A DNA stretch of 64,000 nt from Tractidigestivibacter montrealensis (GTDB taxonomy: Bacteria; Actinomycetota; Coriobacteriia; Coriobacteriales; Atopobiaceae): NCBI RefSeq assembly GCF_024741235.1, contig NZ_JANSKA010000005.1:186001-250000 (forward strand). The letters are read 5' to 3'. Positions 2,922 through 31,535 of this stretch are shown here, piece by piece. The notes under the pieces are model-generated. The model was not told the DNA's origin and did no database searches. It was given only the letters and a program-made list of their open reading frames with translations. The position numbers and the translations under genes were made by a program. The first letter of the stretch is position 1, and each line of letters opens with the position of its first letter.

Positions 2922-4091
2922 ATGTATAAGGTTCACTGCATGAACAACATCGCCAAGGCAGGCACCGACCGCCTTGGGGCCAACTACGAGCTCACCGACG
3001 CCCTCGAGGACGCCGACGCCATCATGGTGAGGAGCGCGAGCCTCCACGAGACCCAGTTCCCCAAGGGCCTTCTCGCCATCGCACGTGCCGGTGCCGGCGT
3101 GAACAACATTCCGCTCGACCGCTGCGCTGACGAGGGCATTGTTGTCTTCAACACGCCTGGCGCCAACGCAAACGCCGTGAAGGAGCTCGTCTTTGCGGGC
3201 CTGCTCCTTGCCAGCCGCGACATCGTGGGCGGCATAGAGTGGGTGCGCGCCAACGCAGACGACCCCGACCTCGCCAAGCATGCCGAGAAGGCAAAGAAGC
3301 AGTTTGCCGGCCACGAGCTTGCCGGCAAACGCCTGGGCGTCATTGGCCTCGGCGCCATTGGTGCCGCCGTGGCCAACACGGCCACCCGCTTTGGCATGCA
3401 GGCCGTGGGCTATGACCCGTACCTCTCGGTCTCTGCTGCGTGGAACCTCGACCGTCGCATCGAGCATGCTGATGACCTCTCCCGCCTTGTCGCCGATTGC
3501 GACTACATCACCATCCACGTTCCCGCAATGGACTCCACCAAGAACATGGTGAACGCGGAGCTCATCTCCCAGATGAAGCCCGGTGCCGTTGTGCTCAACT
3601 TTGCCCGCAACACCATCGTGGACGAGCGGGCCATGGCAGCCGCCCTTGCCGAGGGCCACATCGCCCGCTACGTGACTGACTTCCCCAACCCCGTATCGGC
3701 TGACATGAAGAACGCAATCGTCCTGCCGCACCTGGGCGCCTCCACCACCGAGGCCGAGGAGAACTGCGCCGTCATGGCCGCTGAGGAGCTACGTGACTTC
3801 ATCGAGAACGGTAACATTACTCACTCCGTGAACTTTGGCGCCGTTGACCTTGGTCCCATTGCCTCCGGCGAGCGTCTGGCAATCATCCACCAGAACGTGC
3901 AGGGCATGATCGGCAAGTTCTCGCAGTACTTGGCAGACAATGGCATCAACATCGAGAACATGGCAAACAAGAGCCGTGGCTCGATGGCCTATACGCTCAT
4001 CGACATTGCGGGCGAGGTGCCGGCAGACGTCATCGACCGCCTCGCCCAGGCCGGGGGCGTCCGGCGCATTCGCGTGATTCGTTCAAAGTAG
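2922..4091 (+). CDS. serA: D-3-phosphoglycerate dehydrogenase with ACT domain
   Basis: NAD-dependent dehydrogenase of 389 residues that oxidises 3-phosphoglycerate, the entry step to serine. The Rossmann motif GVIGLGAIGAAVA is near residue 140; the catalytic Arg is in LNFARNTIVD and the His in VLPHLGAST. A C-terminal ACT domain (from about residue 320, with NINIENMANKSRG-like sequence) suggests serine feedback control. It is the short form without the intervening ASB domain of the long actinobacterial enzymes. ATG 2922 follows CAAGGAG. It sits directly behind serC and is closed by the terminator at 4115-4150. Confidence 0.95.
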   Translation: MYKVHCMNNIAKAGTDRLGANYELTDALEDADAIMVRSASLHETQFPKGLLAIARAGAGVNNIPLDRCADEGIVVFNTPGANANAVKELVFAGLLLASRDIVGGIEWVRANADDPDLAKHAEKAKKQFAGHELAGKRLGVIGLGAIGAAVANTATRFGMQAVGYDPYLSVSAAWNLDRRIEHADDLSRLVADCDYITIHVPAMDSTKNMVNAELISQMKPGAVVLNFARNTIVDERAMAAALAEGHIARYVTDFPNPVSADMKNAIVLPHLGASTTEAEENCAVMAAEELRDFIENGNITHSVNFGAVDLGPIASGERLAIIHQNVQGMIGKFSQYLADNGINIENMANKSRGSMAYTLIDIAGEVPADVIDRLAQAGGVRRIRVIRSK

Positions 4092-4114
4092 GGCTTTGGG
4101 TTTCGAAGGTGATA

Positions 4115-4150
4115 AAGTGCCCCTCTCAGACGGACCTGAGAGGGGCACTT
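4115..4150. terminator. Bidirectional intrinsic terminator between serA and the DUF1292 gene
   Basis: A perfect 15 bp stem AAGTGCCCCTCTCAG pairs with CTGAGAGGGGCACTT across a 6-base loop. The genes on both sides converge on it, and T-rich bases follow in both directions, though no long T run is present. Confidence 0.85.
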
Positions 4151-4189
4151 GCTTTCCGGGCAACGACTGACAGGCAAAGTTGCCTTCGT

Positions 4190-4531
4190 CTACTCCATAA
4201 GTGACTGGTACTCAGCGGCCACGGCGTCGAACTCGGCGTCGTCCTCGATGGGCACGATGTCATTGGTGCCGTCATCATGCTCTACGTACCCATATAGGTA
4301 GAGTGACTCCTGGTTGTCCTCCGGTGCGAGTGCAATGTACTCCCTACCATCATATGGGAAAATCCCCAGTACGTCGCACTTTTCTGAGGTGCCGTCATCG
4401 TATTCGAGTGTTATGGTCTCGGGGTCGTCGTCGGCCCAGCCGCCTTGGTCCCCAAAGTCATAGTCATCGTCTCTCTCCAGCTCGTCAAAGTCGAGCTCGG
4501 CGTCCTCGAAGGACTCCTCGTCTTCCGCCAT
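4190..4531 (-). CDS. DUF1292 domain protein
   Basis: A small, very acidic protein of 113 residues of the DUF1292 family (YrzB-like in Firmicutes), function unknown. The N-terminal third is almost all Asp/Glu (EESFEDAELDFDELERDDDY). The family core follows: ITLEYDDGTSEKCDVLGIF, then YIALAPED, then LYLYGYVE. The start ATG 4531 is set by AAGGAG a few bases upstream; longer readings in this frame have no ribosome site. It converges on serA at the shared terminator and is divergent from the M20 peptidase gene. Confidence 0.85.
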   Translation of the reverse strand: MAEDEESFEDAELDFDELERDDDYDFGDQGGWADDDPETITLEYDDGTSEKCDVLGIFPYDGREYIALAPEDNQESLYLYGYVEHDDGTNDIVPIEDDAEFDAVAAEYQSLME

Positions 4532-4700
4532 GGCTACTCCTTCTTTTGGGACCGGGCGTCTCCTGCGCCCATAGACTGAGTTTATCTGCATAATCGTTTC
4601 TTGAACGTGAAAGCGTCGCCTTCTCGGTGAGTAGCCCAAATTACGCCGTTTACCATGGAAAAGACAACTTTGACAAGCCGTGGGCGGTAGAAGGGAAACC

Positions 4701-6095
4701 ATGAGCGGTATCAATGTATATGCACATTACACAAGCGAGGAAGACTACCCAGACCTCGACTACACCGGTGCCTGCGAGCGTCTTGCGCGCGCGATTTCCT
4801 GCAAGACCATAGACCATGGCGAGAAGACCGAGGGCGCGCCCTTCGAGAGGCTGCACGCGCTCGTGCGCTCCTCGTTTCCGCACATCATGGCGGCGTCCAC
4901 CTTCGAGGAGGTGGGAAGGAACCTTCTCATTACCTGCCCGGGGACAGACCCCTCGCTTCCCTGTGCGCTGCTCCTGGCCCACCAGGACGTAGTTCCCGTA
5001 GTCCCCGGCACGGAGAATGACTGGCTGCACGACGCCTTCGCCGGGGAGCTCGACGAGACCTTCGTCTGGGGTAGGGGAGCGCTCGACATCAAGGACATGC
5101 TCATGGGGGAGCTTGAGGCCCTCGAGTACCTCCTCGCCCGTGGCAACCGACCGCGCCGCACCGTCATTCTCGCCTTTGGCGCCGACGAGGAGACCGCTAG
5201 CGCAGGCGCAACCAAACTTGCAGCCATCCTTGAGGCGCGCGGCGTCCGTGCCGAATGGCTGCTCGACGAAGGTACGACAACCATGTTTGCCGGCGCCCTG
5301 TGGGGTGCACCCGAGCGCGTGCTTACTGATGTGTGCATCTCGCAGAAGGGCTACCTTGACCTGCGGTTGGATGCTCACGGAGAAGGCGGGCACTCCTCCA
5401 ACCCCTTTGGAGGCACCTCGCTTGAACGCCTAAGCGTGGCCATCTCGCACCTCGTGGAGTCGCGACCGGCGCCCGAGCTCACTCCCATCGTGCGCGACAC
5501 TTTCCGCGCGCTTGCGCCGCACATCACAGAGGAGCAACTTCGCACGCTCGTCCAGGACGTGGACGCCAACGCCGAGAAGATAGCCTCCCTTGCCGCCGCC
5601 AGGCGCGGCCTCTATCCCTTCGTGGTAACCACGATGGCCGTCGACATGCTCGAGGGTGGGTCTGCCGCGCCAAATGTGATGCCGGGCGACGCAAGTGCGA
5701 CCATCAACTTCCGCCTCCTGCCGGGAACAACGGCAGACGACGTGCTTGCCTGGGTCGAGGGCGCTCTGGATGGCACTGGCGTCACCGCAACGGCCGTTCA
5801 CTACACGCCTGCAGGAAGGATGGACTCAACGAGTGGCGCAGGCTATGCAGAGGTGTCGGAGGCGCTCGAGCACTACTACCGTGACGTCGACGTGGTGCCA
5901 TCCTTTGTCTGTGGTGGTACCGACGCCATTCGCTATGAGGCAGTCTGCGACTCTATTCTTCGCGTCATTCCTTTTAGGCCTACGCCAGAGGAGGAGGCAA
6001 CGGGCGTCCATGGCGTAAACGAGCGCATCTCTCGCCGCACGTACGCACAGGGCATTCGCGTTCTGGTGCGTCTTCTGGAGCGGACCGTCCTCTAG
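4701..6095 (+). CDS. M20 family metallopeptidase (carboxypeptidase S / PM20D1-like)
   Basis: A 464-residue zinc amidohydrolase of the M20 family; such enzymes cleave dipeptides or N-acyl amino acids. Metal-site residues are visible: His in LLAHQDVVPV (residue 94), Asp in GRGALDIKD (129), the catalytic/ligand Glu pair in GADEE (163-164), and the last His in GVHGVNER near the C terminus. The phrase HQDVVPV with a following WxHDAF resembles the CPS1/PM20D1 branch more than DapE or PepV. No signal peptide is seen, so it is probably cytoplasmic. ATG 4701 is preceded by GAAGGG. The substrate is not determinable. Confidence 0.88.
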   Translation: MSGINVYAHYTSEEDYPDLDYTGACERLARAISCKTIDHGEKTEGAPFERLHALVRSSFPHIMAASTFEEVGRNLLITCPGTDPSLPCALLLAHQDVVPVVPGTENDWLHDAFAGELDETFVWGRGALDIKDMLMGELEALEYLLARGNRPRRTVILAFGADEETASAGATKLAAILEARGVRAEWLLDEGTTTMFAGALWGAPERVLTDVCISQKGYLDLRLDAHGEGGHSSNPFGGTSLERLSVAISHLVESRPAPELTPIVRDTFRALAPHITEEQLRTLVQDVDANAEKIASLAAARRGLYPFVVTTMAVDMLEGGSAAPNVMPGDASATINFRLLPGTTADDVLAWVEGALDGTGVTATAVHYTPAGRMDSTSGAGYAEVSEALEHYYRDVDVVPSFVCGGTDAIRYEAVCDSILRVIPFRPTPEEEATGVHGVNERISRRTYAQGIRVLVRLLERTVL

Positions 6096-12738: not shown

Positions 12739-14373
12739 ATGGAGAGTGGTGGTTTGTGCATGACTGAGCGCGCGGTGCGCAAGCTCTCGGTGGGGCGTCG
12801 GCTCTCTCGGAGGTTTCAGGTCAACCTGGTAGGGGAGGGTGCTCTTGCCGGTCTTCTCGGCGGCGGTGTTGTGACACTCTATCGCCTTGCCCTGTCCCTT
12901 GCCGAGAAGGGTCTGCGCGCCATTACGGGCGCTTTCGCCGGTCACGCAATCCTCGTCGCCGCTTGGTTTGCCATTCTCGCCGTACTGCTCCTGGTGGTCT
13001 CGAAGCTTCTGCTGTGGGAGCCCTACACGCAGGGGAGCGGCATCCCCCAAGTAGATGCCGAGGTAATTGGACGCATTGACATGCCCTGGCATCGTGTCAT
13101 TGCGGCGAAGTTCGCCGAGGGTACGCTATGCGCCTTTGCCGGCCTATCCCTTGGACGAGAGGGACCATCCGTCCAGCTTGGAGGGATGTCTGGCAAGGCG
13201 GTCGCCCGAGCTCTCAAGCGTGGGAGGGGAGAGGAGCGGCTGCTTGTTACCTGCGGGGCAGCCGCCGGCATGTCCGCGGCGTTCCATGCGCCGCTCACGG
13301 GCGTCCTCTTTGCAGTCGAGGAGATTCACAAGCAGTTTGGCGCCGCGCTCATTGTCTCGGTCATGACAGCCTCGGTTGTCTCGGATTTTCTCGTCTCACA
13401 GGTGCTGGGAGTGCGACCGGTTCTCAGCCTCTCCTTTGCGGCCGACCTACCTCACGTCGACTACGCGCTCGTCGTGGTTCTTGGCATTGCCTGCGGCATC
13501 CTTGGTGCCCTCCACAACAGCGGCATGTTCTTTGCCCAGCGCTGCTACGACAAGATTCAGCGTCACCTACCGTATGCGCGCCTTGCTATCCCGTTTGCTC
13601 TTGCCGGATTAGTTGCTTTCACGTTTCCCCAGCTCATGTGTGGCGGCGATGCCATAGTAGAGACCATCCAGCAGACAGGTGGCCTCACCTGGTGGGCCAT
13701 TATGGGGCTTCTCCTTGGCAAGTACCTCTTCACGACCATCTGCTTCGCATCTGGGGCACCAGGGGGCACGCTCTTTCCGTTGGTAGCCATGGGGTCTCTC
13801 GTCGGCGGCCTCTTTGGCGTCATCGCCATCAACGGCCTGGGGCTTCCTCAAGCCTATGTCGTGAACTTTGTGGCACTGGGAGTGGCAGGCTGCTTCTCTG
13901 GAGTCGTGAGGGCTCCTGTGACTGCCGTGGTGCTCGTCTTTGAGCTTACGGGCTCTCTTGACTCGCTGCTCTCCGTCTCCATAGTCGCAATTCTTGCATA
14001 CGTCACGGCAAACGTCCTGCGTGTCGACCCGTTCTACGAACATCTGCTCGCCAAGCTTCTGGGAGTGACGCCCGACGACCCCATGGTTAATGGCGAGGCT
14101 GGCGAGAAAATCCTGCATACCTACGCGGTAGGCACAGGTGCACGCATCGAGAACATGCTCATCAAAGACATTCCCTGGCCAGACAACGTACGCGTGGTGA
14201 CAGTCGAACGCGCCGGGCAAGAGATTGTCCCCACCGGAAGCACGCGAATCATGGCGTTGGACAGTCTGCTCGTCATCATGGATACCGATACGGAGAGCGA
14301 CGCAAGTCTCAAGCTTCAACAGATGACACGCGCAAGCATCGACACGCAGTGGACGCCGTCAAATACACGGTAA
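12739..14373 (+). CDS. ClC-family H+/Cl- antiporter with C-terminal TrkA-C domain
   Basis: A 544-residue membrane transporter. The ion-path motifs are all present: GSGIPQV, GLSLGREGPSVQLG (with the gating Glu), and the APLTGVLFAVEEI segment whose Glu corresponds to the internal proton glutamate, pointing to an exchanger rather than a channel. About ten membrane helices are followed from residue 460 by a soluble TrkA-C/RCK-C-like domain (IENMLIKDIPWPDNVRVVTVERAGQEIVPTG in outline). Fluoride-type CLC-F motifs are not seen. Such proteins serve acid resistance or anion balance. The start is ATG 12739, weakly supported by TTTGGA; ATG 12760 is a second option. Confidence 0.9.
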   Translation: MESGGLCMTERAVRKLSVGRRLSRRFQVNLVGEGALAGLLGGGVVTLYRLALSLAEKGLRAITGAFAGHAILVAAWFAILAVLLLVVSKLLLWEPYTQGSGIPQVDAEVIGRIDMPWHRVIAAKFAEGTLCAFAGLSLGREGPSVQLGGMSGKAVARALKRGRGEERLLVTCGAAAGMSAAFHAPLTGVLFAVEEIHKQFGAALIVSVMTASVVSDFLVSQVLGVRPVLSLSFAADLPHVDYALVVVLGIACGILGALHNSGMFFAQRCYDKIQRHLPYARLAIPFALAGLVAFTFPQLMCGGDAIVETIQQTGGLTWWAIMGLLLGKYLFTTICFASGAPGGTLFPLVAMGSLVGGLFGVIAINGLGLPQAYVVNFVALGVAGCFSGVVRAPVTAVVLVFELTGSLDSLLSVSIVAILAYVTANVLRVDPFYEHLLAKLLGVTPDDPMVNGEAGEKILHTYAVGTGARIENMLIKDIPWPDNVRVVTVERAGQEIVPTGSTRIMALDSLLVIMDTDTESDASLKLQQMTRASIDTQWTPSNTR

Positions 14374-19371: not shown

Positions 19372-19818
19372 CTAGACTCCGCTTGAGCCAAAACCGCCGG
19401 CACCACGATCGGTCTCATCGAGCTCGTCTACCTCCTGAAGGGAGACCACAGGGACTCGTTTAATTACGAGCTGCGCAATCCTCTCACCACGCTCGATGTG
19501 AATGCTCCTGGATGGGTCGAGATTGATAGCGCAAACCTTGAGCTCGCCCCGATAATGAGCGTCTATGAGACCAGGCGTATTAGCCATGGACAGCCCCTCA
19601 CGCAGAGCAAGACCGCTTCTGGGCTGAACAAATCCCGCATATCCCTCGGGGATGGCAATGGCGAGACCAGTACCAACGAGCCTGCGCTCAAAAGGTGCGA
19701 GCGTAGCGTCCTCGTTGGAGCGCAAATCGAGACCGGCATCACCCTCATACGCATAGGTTGGGAGCTCAACTGTTGGGTCAAGCCGCTTGATGGGAAGTGT
19801 GAGCTTGGTTTCTATCAT
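19372..19818 (-). CDS. dut: dUTP diphosphatase
   Basis: Trimeric dUTPase of 148 residues that hydrolyses dUTP to dUMP, keeping uracil out of DNA. All five motifs are visible in order: [35 protein letters not shown] and the C-terminal GAGGFGSSG. Its ATG overlaps the stop of nrdR by 4 bp (ATGA), so nrdR and dut are translationally coupled, which links dNTP pool cleaning to ribonucleotide reductase control. Confidence 0.96.
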
Positions 19819-20264
19819 TTGTTGAGACTCCTCAGCTCCTCGCTGAACTCATCAACGTCCTTGAAGTCCCTATAAACCGAGGCAAAGCGTATGTAGGCAA
19901 CCTTGTCGACGTTAACCAACCGCTTGAGCACCATGCTTCCAAGGTCATGGGAAGAGACCTCGTTCATGCCTTCATCCCGCAGCTCTGACTCTATGTCATC
20001 GATGAGGCCGTCAAGTGCCTCGACAGGCACGCTACGCTTAACGGTGGCCGCCAGCAGTCCACGCATGAGCTTCTGACGATCAAACGTCTCTTTGCGACCG
20101 TCTTTCTTAACCACAAGGAGGGGCATCTCCTCGCGACGCTCGTACGTCGTGAACCGATAGCCGCATTTGACGCACTCACGTCGACGGCGAATGGCGTCGT
20201 TGCTCTCCGATGGCCTGGAGTCGACAACCTTGGACTCCTCGCACCCGCATTTTGGACAGCGCAT
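19815..20264 (-). CDS. nrdR: Transcriptional repressor NrdR
   Basis: A 149-residue ATP-cone repressor of ribonucleotide reductase genes. The zinc ribbon [18 protein letters not shown]...[14 protein letters not shown] is at the N terminus and the ATP-cone with [16 protein letters not shown] follows from residue 50. ATG 20264 is the start because AGGAGG stands 4 bases before it; a TTG one codon earlier is too close to the ribosome site. No classical NrdR box is evident in the 150 bp upstream. In actinobacteria nrdR commonly follows the LysM gene next to lexA, as here. Confidence 0.95.
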
Positions 20265-20414
20265 CAAACCTCCTAAAGGACTCCATTAGGAACTTAACAC
20301 AAAGCGTCCAAAATACCATCACAAAGACGCCTATAAATTCAAACTGGAAATGGAGCCAATGATATGAGCCACTTGATGCCGCCATCGCGAAGCAAGACGA
20401 AGGGGCTTGTCCTG

Positions 20415-20864
20415 CTAGCGTGACGCAGGGACAAGAAGGATCTGCCCAGGCTGGAGGTTGGATGTGGTAAGAGAGTTCTTCGCGGTTATCCACTGCGCAA
20501 GCTCCGCCGTACTGTAACCATCCACCTGATGCTGAGAGGCAAGCCCCCAGACGGAATCGCCGGACTCAACCACAACCTCTTGAGCCGGAAGGGAAGAAAG
20601 GGCCGAGTTCACACGAGCCTCAATGGATGCGTTGCTCGCAAGGAGTGCCCCAAAGAGCCCCGCGGCAACTAGGAGCGTGCAGACTATCACGGTAACGATG
20701 TCCAAGCGAGAAGTTACCTGAGGCTGCTGCTCTTTTCCGTGGCCTCGCCGAGCAACCCTGGAATTCATCTTCTCCGCTCCTCCCTCAAGAAGCGTGAGCG
20801 AAGAATAGGAAGGGACGAGAGCCGAAGAACCCTCGGTGCCATACATGCGATTAGCGTAAGTCAT
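20415..20864 (-). CDS. LysM-domain membrane protein, probable SOS cell-division suppressor
   Basis: A 149-residue protein with a cytoplasmic tail (1-50), one membrane segment (about 55-77, IVTVIVCTLLVAAGLFGALLA) and a C-terminal LysM peptidoglycan-binding domain (VVVESGDSVWGLASQH...NLQPGQILLVPA). It is divergent from lexA and its promoter region carries LexA boxes. The same arrangement is known for Rv2719c of Mycobacterium, DivS of Corynebacterium and, in function, YneA of Bacillus, which halt division during DNA damage. Sequence similarity of such proteins is low, so the role is inferred from layout and position. AGAGGGGAG precedes ATG 20864. Confidence 0.82.
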   Translation of the reverse strand: MTYANRMYGTEGSSALVPSYSSLTLLEGGAEKMNSRVARRGHGKEQQPQVTSRLDIVTVIVCTLLVAAGLFGALLASNASIEARVNSALSSLPAQEVVVESGDSVWGLASQHQVDGYSTAELAQWITAKNSLTTSNLQPGQILLVPASR

Positions 20865-20945
20865 TGTGTGCTCCCCTCTTGTGTGCTTATCGGGAACCGT
20901 TATAGCTGCCGCACGGGACAGAAATTAGAGTCTTGCGCGAGGGAC

Positions 20946-20958
20946 CGAACATCTGTAC
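20946..20958. promoter_or_regulatory. LexA box 1
   Basis: CGAACATCTGTAC fits the CGAAC-N4-GTTCG pattern with a degenerate right half. It lies just downstream of the -10 of the LysM-gene promoter. Confidence 0.65.
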
Positions 20959-20960
20959 TC

Positions 20961-20989
20961 TAGTATCAACGTACATTTGTTCGTGTCAA
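20961..20989 (-). promoter_or_regulatory. Promoter of the LysM/nrdR/dut side
   Basis: Minus-strand TTGACA (20984-20989) and ATACTA (20961-20966) are separated by 17 bp. The spacer is filled by LexA box 2. Confidence 0.65.
20970..20983. promoter_or_regulatory. LexA box 2
   Basis: CGTACATTTGTTCG, one half perfect and the other with one change (CGTAC for CGAAC). It occupies the spacer of the LysM-gene promoter. Confidence 0.75.
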
Positions 20990-20997
20990 GACTCATT

Positions 20998-21011
20998 CGA
21001 ACATTTGTTTG
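20998..21011. promoter_or_regulatory. LexA box 3
   Basis: CGAACATTTGTTTG matches the actinobacterial/Bacillus-type SOS box closely and overlaps the -35 of the lexA promoter, as expected for autorepression. Confidence 0.85.
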
Positions 21012-21037
21012 CAAAGTTTCGAGGGCAAGGGTACTAT
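21009..21037 (+). promoter_or_regulatory. lexA promoter
   Basis: TTGCAA (21009-21014) and TACTAT (21032-21037) with a 17 bp spacer. Transcription would start about 16 bases before ATG 21060. Confidence 0.6.
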
Positions 21038-21059
21038 TGACCCAACGAGAGGAGACGCC

Positions 21060-21722
21060 ATGTCAAAGGGAAAGCTCAGCAAGCGCCAGAGGGCCATCTA
21101 TGACTTCATCTGCTCGTACACTGATGAGCACGGCTATCCTCCCTCGGTAAGGGAGATAGGTGCCGCAGTGGGGCTTGCCTCGCCCTCGACGGTCCACATG
21201 CACCTAAAGGTGCTTGAGGAGATGGGGCTCATCAGCAGAGACCCCAAGAAGCCCCGCACGATTGAAGTGGTCCCCGACAAGCAGGTTTCGGAGGACGGTA
21301 GTGCCCAGGAGAAGCTTGTCGCCGTGCAGGAGGATGTCGACAAGAACTCAATCACCCTGCCCCTCGTAGGCCGCGTGGCTGCAGGTGTCCCCATTCTCGC
21401 CGAGCAGAACGTCGAGGAGACACTCACCCTCCCCACGAGCATCGTGGGTGACTCCAGTTCATTTATCCTTCGTGTTCGGGGCGAGTCAATGATCAACGCC
21501 GGGATATTCGATGGCGACTACATCGTGGTGAAAGAGCAGCATGACGCTCACGACGGAGAAATCGTCGTTGCGCTCATTGATGACTCCGCAACGGTCAAGA
21601 CCTTCTATCGCGAGAAAGACCGCATTCGTCTCCAGCCAGAGAACGATCACATGAGTCCCATCTACGCTGATAATCCAGTCATTCTTGGCCGCGTCACCGC
21701 ACTCATCCGCAGCCTTTCCTAG
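21060..21722 (+). CDS. lexA: SOS repressor LexA
   Basis: A 220-residue repressor and self-cleaving S24 peptidase. The winged helix covers residues 1-65 (KRQRAIYDFICSYTDEHGYPPSVREIG, shown here in outline). The cleavage site is A108-G109 in VGRVAAGVP; the catalytic dyad is S143 in RGESMINAG and K180 in SATVKTF. ATG 21060 follows AGGAG; the frame is open upstream, but that part overlaps the operator and promoter. RecA, which triggers cleavage, is encoded at 30374-31477 and carries a matching operator. The membrane protein gene downstream begins after 2 bp. Confidence 0.97.
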   Translation: MSKGKLSKRQRAIYDFICSYTDEHGYPPSVREIGAAVGLASPSTVHMHLKVLEEMGLISRDPKKPRTIEVVPDKQVSEDGSAQEKLVAVQEDVDKNSITLPLVGRVAAGVPILAEQNVEETLTLPTSIVGDSSSFILRVRGESMINAGIFDGDYIVVKEQHDAHDGEIVVALIDDSATVKTFYREKDRIRLQPENDHMSPIYADNPVILGRVTALIRSLS

Positions 21723-31506: not shown

Positions 31507-31535
31507 ATGATATACGAACACCCGTTCGTAGTCAA
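31507..31535 (-). promoter_or_regulatory. recA promoter with embedded SOS box
   Basis: Minus-strand TTGACT (31530-31535) and TATCAT (31507-31512) are 17 bp apart. The spacer and flanks form the perfect palindrome-type LexA site CGAACACCCGTTCG (31515-31528), so a bound LexA would block the polymerase. Confidence 0.88.

Follow-up and report, generated by a model that had tools for sequence, protein, structure and literature searches.

Is the divergent pair formed by lexA and a LysM gene in Tractidigestivibacter montrealensis governed by LexA alone, or does a second DNA-damage pathway act on one of the two genes? The locus lies in a window of 64,000 nucleotides (the whole stretch of DNA that we analysed) from a genome of 2.46 Mb. 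The lexA gene (21060–21722, + strand) encodes a protein of 220 residues with a LexA DNA-binding domain and an S24 peptidase (Pfam and NCBIfam), which matches the LexA repressor model TIGR00498 over its full length at 222.4 bits (cut-off 110.95). Divergent from it, across an intergenic region of 195 bp, is a gene (20415–20864, − strand) for a 149-residue protein that has a LysM domain at residues 98–146 (PF01476, 30.4 bits) and a hydrophobic, transmembrane-type stretch spotted by eye. This protein is closest to the NCBIfam YneA model (NF010723; E = 1.8e-14), at 53.5 bits and under the cut-off of 60. Because it combines a transmembrane segment with a LysM domain, adjoins lexA and lies under LexA boxes, we regard it as a candidate SOS division inhibitor of the YneA/ChiZ type. 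The next gene on its strand is nrdR (19815–20267, −; TIGR00244, 187.2 bits; starting from the first ATG its end would fall near 20264), which we take to be also the next gene after Rv2719c in M. tuberculosis, and nrdR is followed by dut, for dUTP diphosphatase (19372–19818, −; profile matches). Of 66 Atopobiaceae lexA loci, 65 have a LysM ORF divergent from lexA and the last is truncated; in 57 of 64 loci the N-terminus of nrdR is on the strand of the LysM gene. A LysM relative was found somewhere in the genome for 117 of 140 Atopobiaceae genomes and nowhere in the other 23.

Three predicted LexA boxes lie within 66 bp of the intergenic region: box 1 (CGAACATCTGTACT, 20946–20959), box 2 (CGTACATTTGTTCG, 20970–20983) and box 3 (CGAACATTTGTTTG, 20998–21011). 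Their starts are 24 and 28 bp apart and each departs from GAACN4GTTC at a single base. Of 20,000 dinucleotide shuffles of the region, only 3 produced as many as three boxes at a tolerance of one mismatch (mean 0.12 per shuffle), which confirms that the boxes exceed chance; they also recur across Coriobacteriia. In the window as a whole, 15 12-mers have at most one mismatch to GAACN4GTTC, and the eight-base rule is by itself insufficient to define an operator. Three of the 15 are boxes 1–3 and one is a perfect box in the spacer of the recA promoter (CGAACACCCGTTCG, 31515–31528; promoter read by eye as TTGACT at 31535–31530 and TATCAT at 31512–31507, recA recognised by eye from its translation), which came from the same kind of one-mismatch scan and served as an in-window comparison. 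The remaining 11 include two perfect matches (688 and 6269) and one, at 14038, inside an ORF.

A promoter scan of positions 20850–21070 returned a single promoter-like site, TTGACA-N16-GATACT on the minus strand (−35 at 20984–20989, −10 at 20962–20967), with 10 of 12 matches against a shuffle mean of 0.1. This site, P1, is directed towards the LysM gene, and a similar promoter (TTGAC, a gap of 16–18 nt and at least four of the six bases of TATAAT) is present in 61 of 65 Atopobiaceae loci. For lexA, a putative promoter was read from the sequence as TTGCAA (21009–21014, +) and TACTAT (21032–21037, +) with a 17-bp spacer; it is predicted under the threshold of the scan that returned P1. Box 1 is just downstream of the P1 −10, box 2 occupies the P1 spacer and box 3 overlaps the putative lexA −35. 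In placement and in distances, the three boxes thus bear out what an earlier note on this DNA had described.

The arrangement is conserved. All eight genomes of the genus keep the distances of 24 and 28 bp, and box 1 has the same 14 bases in all eight. We compared loci from four families, namely Atopobiaceae (f1), two that by inference are probably Eggerthellaceae (f2) and Coriobacteriaceae (f3), and a fourth (f4). Three or more boxes lie within 150 bp of lexA in 58 of 66 Atopobiaceae loci, and three or more are found at lexA in 26 of 31 f2, 5/5 f3 and 3/3 f4 loci; three boxes by themselves are ordinary. A canonical triple, with boxes 1 and 2 separated by 24 bp (40 loci), 23 bp (8) or 22 bp (3) and box 3 following at 27–30 bp, fits 51 of the 66 Atopobiaceae loci and does not fit the other 15. 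Within these 51, box 1 has the form GAAC..GTAC in 44, box 2 GTAC..GTTC in 37 and box 3 GAAC..GTTT in 50. In f2, on the other hand, box 1 is perfect in 30 of 31 loci and box 2 in 29 of 31, and both are perfect in all five f3 and all three f4 loci. The distance between boxes 1 and 2 is mostly 28 bp in f2 and f3 versus 22–24 bp in Atopobiaceae, and to our reading it tracks the promoter geometry. Among the four families, then, the GTAC half-site and the 24-bp spacing are mainly Atopobiaceae traits. Five loci (L094, L104, L100, L101 and L107) have a different layout, with two boxes 15–16 bp apart, at least one of them with a GTGC half, and a lexA box about 50 bp further on.

The earlier note held that the boxes repress lexA and the LysM gene at once. 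They do sit over both promoters, but this account is incomplete, as it overlooked P2, another promoter-like element, which lies between box 1 and the start codon of the LysM gene. P2 reads TGTCCC-N10-TATAAC (20899–20920, −; TGTC at 20917–20920, −10 at 20899–20904), and a likely ribosome-binding site comes after it, ahead of the LysM start. No LexA box covers it, and with about 60 bp from the centre of box 1 down to the expected P2 start, LexA bound there should leave P2 free. The element is conserved: of 65 Atopobiaceae loci, 50 have TGTC-N12-TATA on the LysM strand and 1 has it on the other strand, and every other gap from 6 to 18 gives at most one locus on the LysM strand. We arrived at this pattern after seeing the data, with the gaps and the strand serving as controls: a first, stricter pattern ending in C or T matched 45 of 65 loci (1 on the other strand, 0 backwards) and missed the closest members of the genus, in which six P2 copies end in TATAAA. 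A still looser TAWR form matches 55 of 65, with gap 14 also giving 14 loci, presumably identical sites with the reading shifted by two bases. Upstream of the corresponding LysM position, TGTC-N12-TATA occurs in 5/5 f3, 0/31 f2 and 0/3 f4 loci; two of the three f4 loci match TGTC-N12-TANNNT, with TGTCAG. Since a conserved P2 lies outside the boxes, LexA is probably not the sole controller of the LysM gene.

P2 resembles the promoters activated by PafBC, a sigma adaptor that responds to single-stranded DNA (as described in PMC11804915). The motif of these RecA-independent promoters (RecA-NDp) is given as tTGTCRgtg-N8-TannnT (PMC5656591) or, in an alternative form, as TGTCGG-N10-TA-N3-T with variants (in the account of PMC8151990). 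P2 has the published spacing, TGTC-N12-TA, but differs in the flanks (TGTCCCGT...TATAAC), with C in place of R after TGTC, no GTG, and C in place of the last T. Across the family copies of P2 the base after TGTC is C in 45 of 55, followed mostly by G or C. In the whole genome, TGTCS-N11-TATAAC has four matches and its reversed control none. One match is P2, and a second stands upstream of a Y-family DNA polymerase gene, flanked by two perfect LexA boxes. The remaining two fall within or next to predicted ORFs and have no LexA box nearby. At the polymerase gene (locus L160, G000 C4:428375-428488, 1435–1548) the two boxes are 100 bp apart with TGTC-N12-TATAAC between them, and the stretch upstream of this element, TTATTTGTGTC, also occurs at P2 in L047 and L048.

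A candidate for the protein that would read P2 is also present. All eight genomes of the genus have exactly two WYL-domain matches, adjacent and on one strand, as a tandem pair. The profile of the second protein matches the PafBC structure 6sj9 with E = 1.8e-16; its score for HTH_PafC (PF19187), 13.7 bits, is below the cut-off of 32. The profile of the first protein has its best PDB matches, at a non-significant E of 0.057, in 9fnd_X and 7p5x_AY, the M. smegmatis partner chains of PafC and so by inference PafB, and its single sequence gave no match in the PDB. From these comparisons, the order of the putative pair fits pafB-pafC. A helicase gene (Helicase_C_2, DinG-like by eye; locus L157, G000 C4:676500-682500, 4054–6000, −) is convergent with the pair.

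Counted from match positions, the tandem pair is present in 46 of 50 Atopobiaceae, 5/5 f3 and 3/3 f4 genomes, and in 0 of 40 f2 genomes, 36 of which have some WYL protein, none of them in tandem. A WYL search of the family genomes in which at least 132 of 140 had a match was left out of these pair counts, and PF19187, which matched in 110 of 140 genomes and exceeded its cut-off in 8, was set aside as a PafC detector. A LysM-profile ORF likewise faces lexA in 5/5 f3 and 3/3 f4 loci and in 0 of 31 f2 loci. P2 and the PafB/PafC-like pair therefore appear largely to co-occur by family, with the f2 contrast counting as one evolutionary event in which the LysM gene is absent too. One further Atopobiaceae genome, G036, outside the 66 loci, has two boxes, no P2, no LysM gene and a single WYL match. 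We rejected the correlation of P2 with the pair inside Atopobiaceae as uninformative: nearly all genomes have both, and there are exceptions both ways, with P2 and no tandem pair at L079, L088 (fragmented assembly) and L100, and a tandem pair and no clear P2 at L094, L095, L099 and L104.

Our preferred reading, to which we give a probability of roughly 0.65, is that the locus is the coriobacterial form of the region that holds lexA and an SOS division inhibitor, with a LexA-repressed P1 and lexA promoter and a second promoter, P2, of the PafBC type. Reading binding and regulation from the positions and conservation of these elements, we propose that in undamaged cells LexA dimers at boxes 2 and 1 would block P1 of the LysM gene, while LexA at box 3 would block the lexA promoter. 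RecA-stimulated LexA cleavage would then open both promoters. Each gene would have its own box or boxes, and joint or cooperative repression would not be required. P2 would give the LysM gene a second start about 60 bp further downstream, outside the boxes, where the PafB/PafC-like pair probably activates transcription upon build-up of single-stranded DNA, so that the presumed division inhibitor could be made without loss of LexA. The predicted transcript starts of the LysM gene are near 20955 for P1 and 20892 for P2.

The main competing reading is that LexA alone controls both genes and that P2, unconnected with PafBC, is either an ordinary sigma-A promoter, constitutive or weak, or some conserved feature of the leader. 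A basal promoter would account for low constitutive expression, P2 departs from the mycobacterial consensus, and P2 and the WYL pair are sometimes separate within Atopobiaceae. Furthermore, Streptomyces has PafBC homologues, and the M. smegmatis motif was seemingly not conserved there in the initial search described in PMC9380542. This reading leaves unaccounted for the constant spacing of TGTC and TATA (12 nt at 50 of 65 loci), the like element in the LexA-flanked promoter of the Y-family polymerase and the joint absence of P2 and the pair from f2, and a PafBC site is directed away from lexA in M. tuberculosis as well (PMC8151990). On balance we consider it unlikely, if a serious competitor. 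Much less probable still is that the three boxes bind LexA cooperatively, as one unit over both promoters. The boxes do lie inside 66 bp and the triple recurs across the class; however, the argument that their distances are near helical repeats fails. With 10.5 bp to the turn, the distance of 24 bp spans 2.29 turns (103 degrees out of phase) and that of 28 bp spans 2.67 (240 degrees), and phasing is thereby ruled out as evidence for cooperativity. The distance between boxes 1 and 2 depends on the family, that between boxes 2 and 3 varies from 27 to 30 bp within Atopobiaceae, and in M. tuberculosis a single box governs lexA (PMC8151990).

A further proposal was that boxes 1 and 2 are deliberately weak, through their degenerate GTAC half, so that release is graded and the LysM gene is freed before lexA. 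The GTAC half is indeed unusual, but box 3 is also one base off the perfect palindrome, and we rejected the claim that degeneracy is confined to boxes 1 and 2: each of the three deviates by one base, box 3 having a common operator form. The contrast between boxes 1 and 2 and box 3 holds only in a weaker form. In favour of graded release, GTAC is common in Atopobiaceae at positions where f2–f4 nearly always have perfect boxes, the recA box in the window is perfect, and the form of box 3, GAACN4GTTTG, is that of the C. difficile recA operator, reported among those with the slowest LexA dissociation (PMC4234289). Against it, GTAC is the LexA half-site of cyanobacteria (RGTACnnnDGTWCB, as given in PMC2248561), and when each operator was scored in its better orientation over the 14 positions of the published Gram-positive consensus CGAACRNRYGTTYC, box 1 matched at 11, boxes 2 and 3 at 12 each and the recA box at 13. 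Box 2 thus ties with box 3 and is not plainly the worse operator. Paired boxes at one promoter would also compensate for weakness, and the Atopobiaceae LexA itself differs at one position of the recognition helix, so that GTAC may bind well. Graded release is therefore possible, though on the whole we doubt it.

The difference in the recognition helix is a Met in 63 of 66 Atopobiaceae LexA proteins versus Val in f2 and Ala in f3 and f4, at the position that aligns with E. coli Glu45, a residue listed among those contacting DNA (PMC3091678). On a loose count, 60 of the 63 Met LexAs go with a box that has a GTAC half, and the sole Ala LexA of the family (L083) goes with two perfect boxes and no GTAC. 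There are counter-cases, namely Met with perfect boxes (L086), Met without GTAC (L097 and L100) and Thr with GTAC (L094 and L104), and the GTAC half also occurs in 6 of 31 f2 loci. On a quick tree the operator label changes 10 times versus 4 for the residue, with L083 and L086 in an unresolved basal fork. A co-change of LexA and its operator, Met with GTAC, is suggestive at best. Comparison operators before a uvrB-like gene (by eye), the Y-family polymerase gene and a radical-SAM gene came from an exact-match search and are therefore no evidence that operators elsewhere are always perfect. The radical-SAM gene (locus L155, G000 C5:157800-161000) follows a perfect LexA box at 1571–1584, with a one-mismatch box 41 bp further, and has weak helix-hairpin-helix matches, possibly pointing to DNA repair.

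The type of arrangement is already known: M. tuberculosis (lexA/Rv2719c) and B. subtilis (yneA) both have the gene for an SOS division inhibitor next to lexA. The closest known system is M. tuberculosis lexA/Rv2719c. There, as here, lexA adjoins a LysM membrane division inhibitor (chiZ) with several SOS boxes, a PafBC-type motif points away from lexA, and the inhibitor operon runs into further genes (as described in PMC8151990 and PMC3989709). In M. tuberculosis one SOS box serves lexA and three others plus the PafBC site serve the Rv2719c operon, unlike the one and two boxes of our locus (PMC8151990; its Discussion prints Rv2019c and its supplementary legend rv2719c). Further differences are the sequence of P2, which is not that of the mycobacterial motif, and the GTAC half in boxes 1 and 2 of our locus. 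The B. subtilis lexA/yneA region is similar in that a LysM and transmembrane SOS division inhibitor adjoins lexA (as described in PMC3989709 and PMC13396833) and in its GAACN4GTTC operators (PMC4234289). Unlike YneA itself, the LysM protein here scores under the NCBIfam YneA cut-off. We know of no PafBC-type promoter at B. subtilis lexA/yneA. C. glutamicum also has an SOS-induced division suppressor near lexA, DivS, which PMC3989709 describes as having no significant homology with YneA.

The locus would extend a layout well studied in mycobacteria, with SOS boxes and a PafBC promoter upstream of the gene for a LysM division inhibitor, to another class of actinobacteria, found in the gut. More specifically, we tentatively suggest, at somewhat less than even odds, that the Atopobiaceae division inhibitor is wired to both damage pathways, through a LexA-repressed P1 with GTAC/GTTC hybrid operators, perhaps accompanied by the change to Met where the recognition helix of LexA contacts bases, and through P2, which would work independently of LexA and be recognised by a diverged PafBC whose promoter motif is its own. 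If so, the PafBC response extends to Coriobacteriia, with a sister family, f2 (probably Eggerthellaceae), that is without the pair, P2 and the LysM gene together. A review (PMC8223512) has already described RecA-NDp promoters as extending outside mycobacteria; among the matches listed for SOS or PafBC in Coriobacteriia in the open-licence PMC literature, we found nothing relevant. P2 supplies a concrete variant of the PafBC-type motif to test, and the GTAC half-site, being specific to the family, offers a case in which a change of operator can be tested.

Two observations concern the gene that faces lexA. At the f2 loci L172 and L175, a membrane-type ORF without LysM faces lexA and is followed by nrdR, and the LexA boxes are kept. 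At its N-terminus the LysM protein has a tail, presumably cytoplasmic (20800–20864, −), with a short motif, G-(S/T/N)-(S/A)-A-L, that by eye recurs in the corresponding tail of the LysM-less ORF (homologues at L168 and L175).
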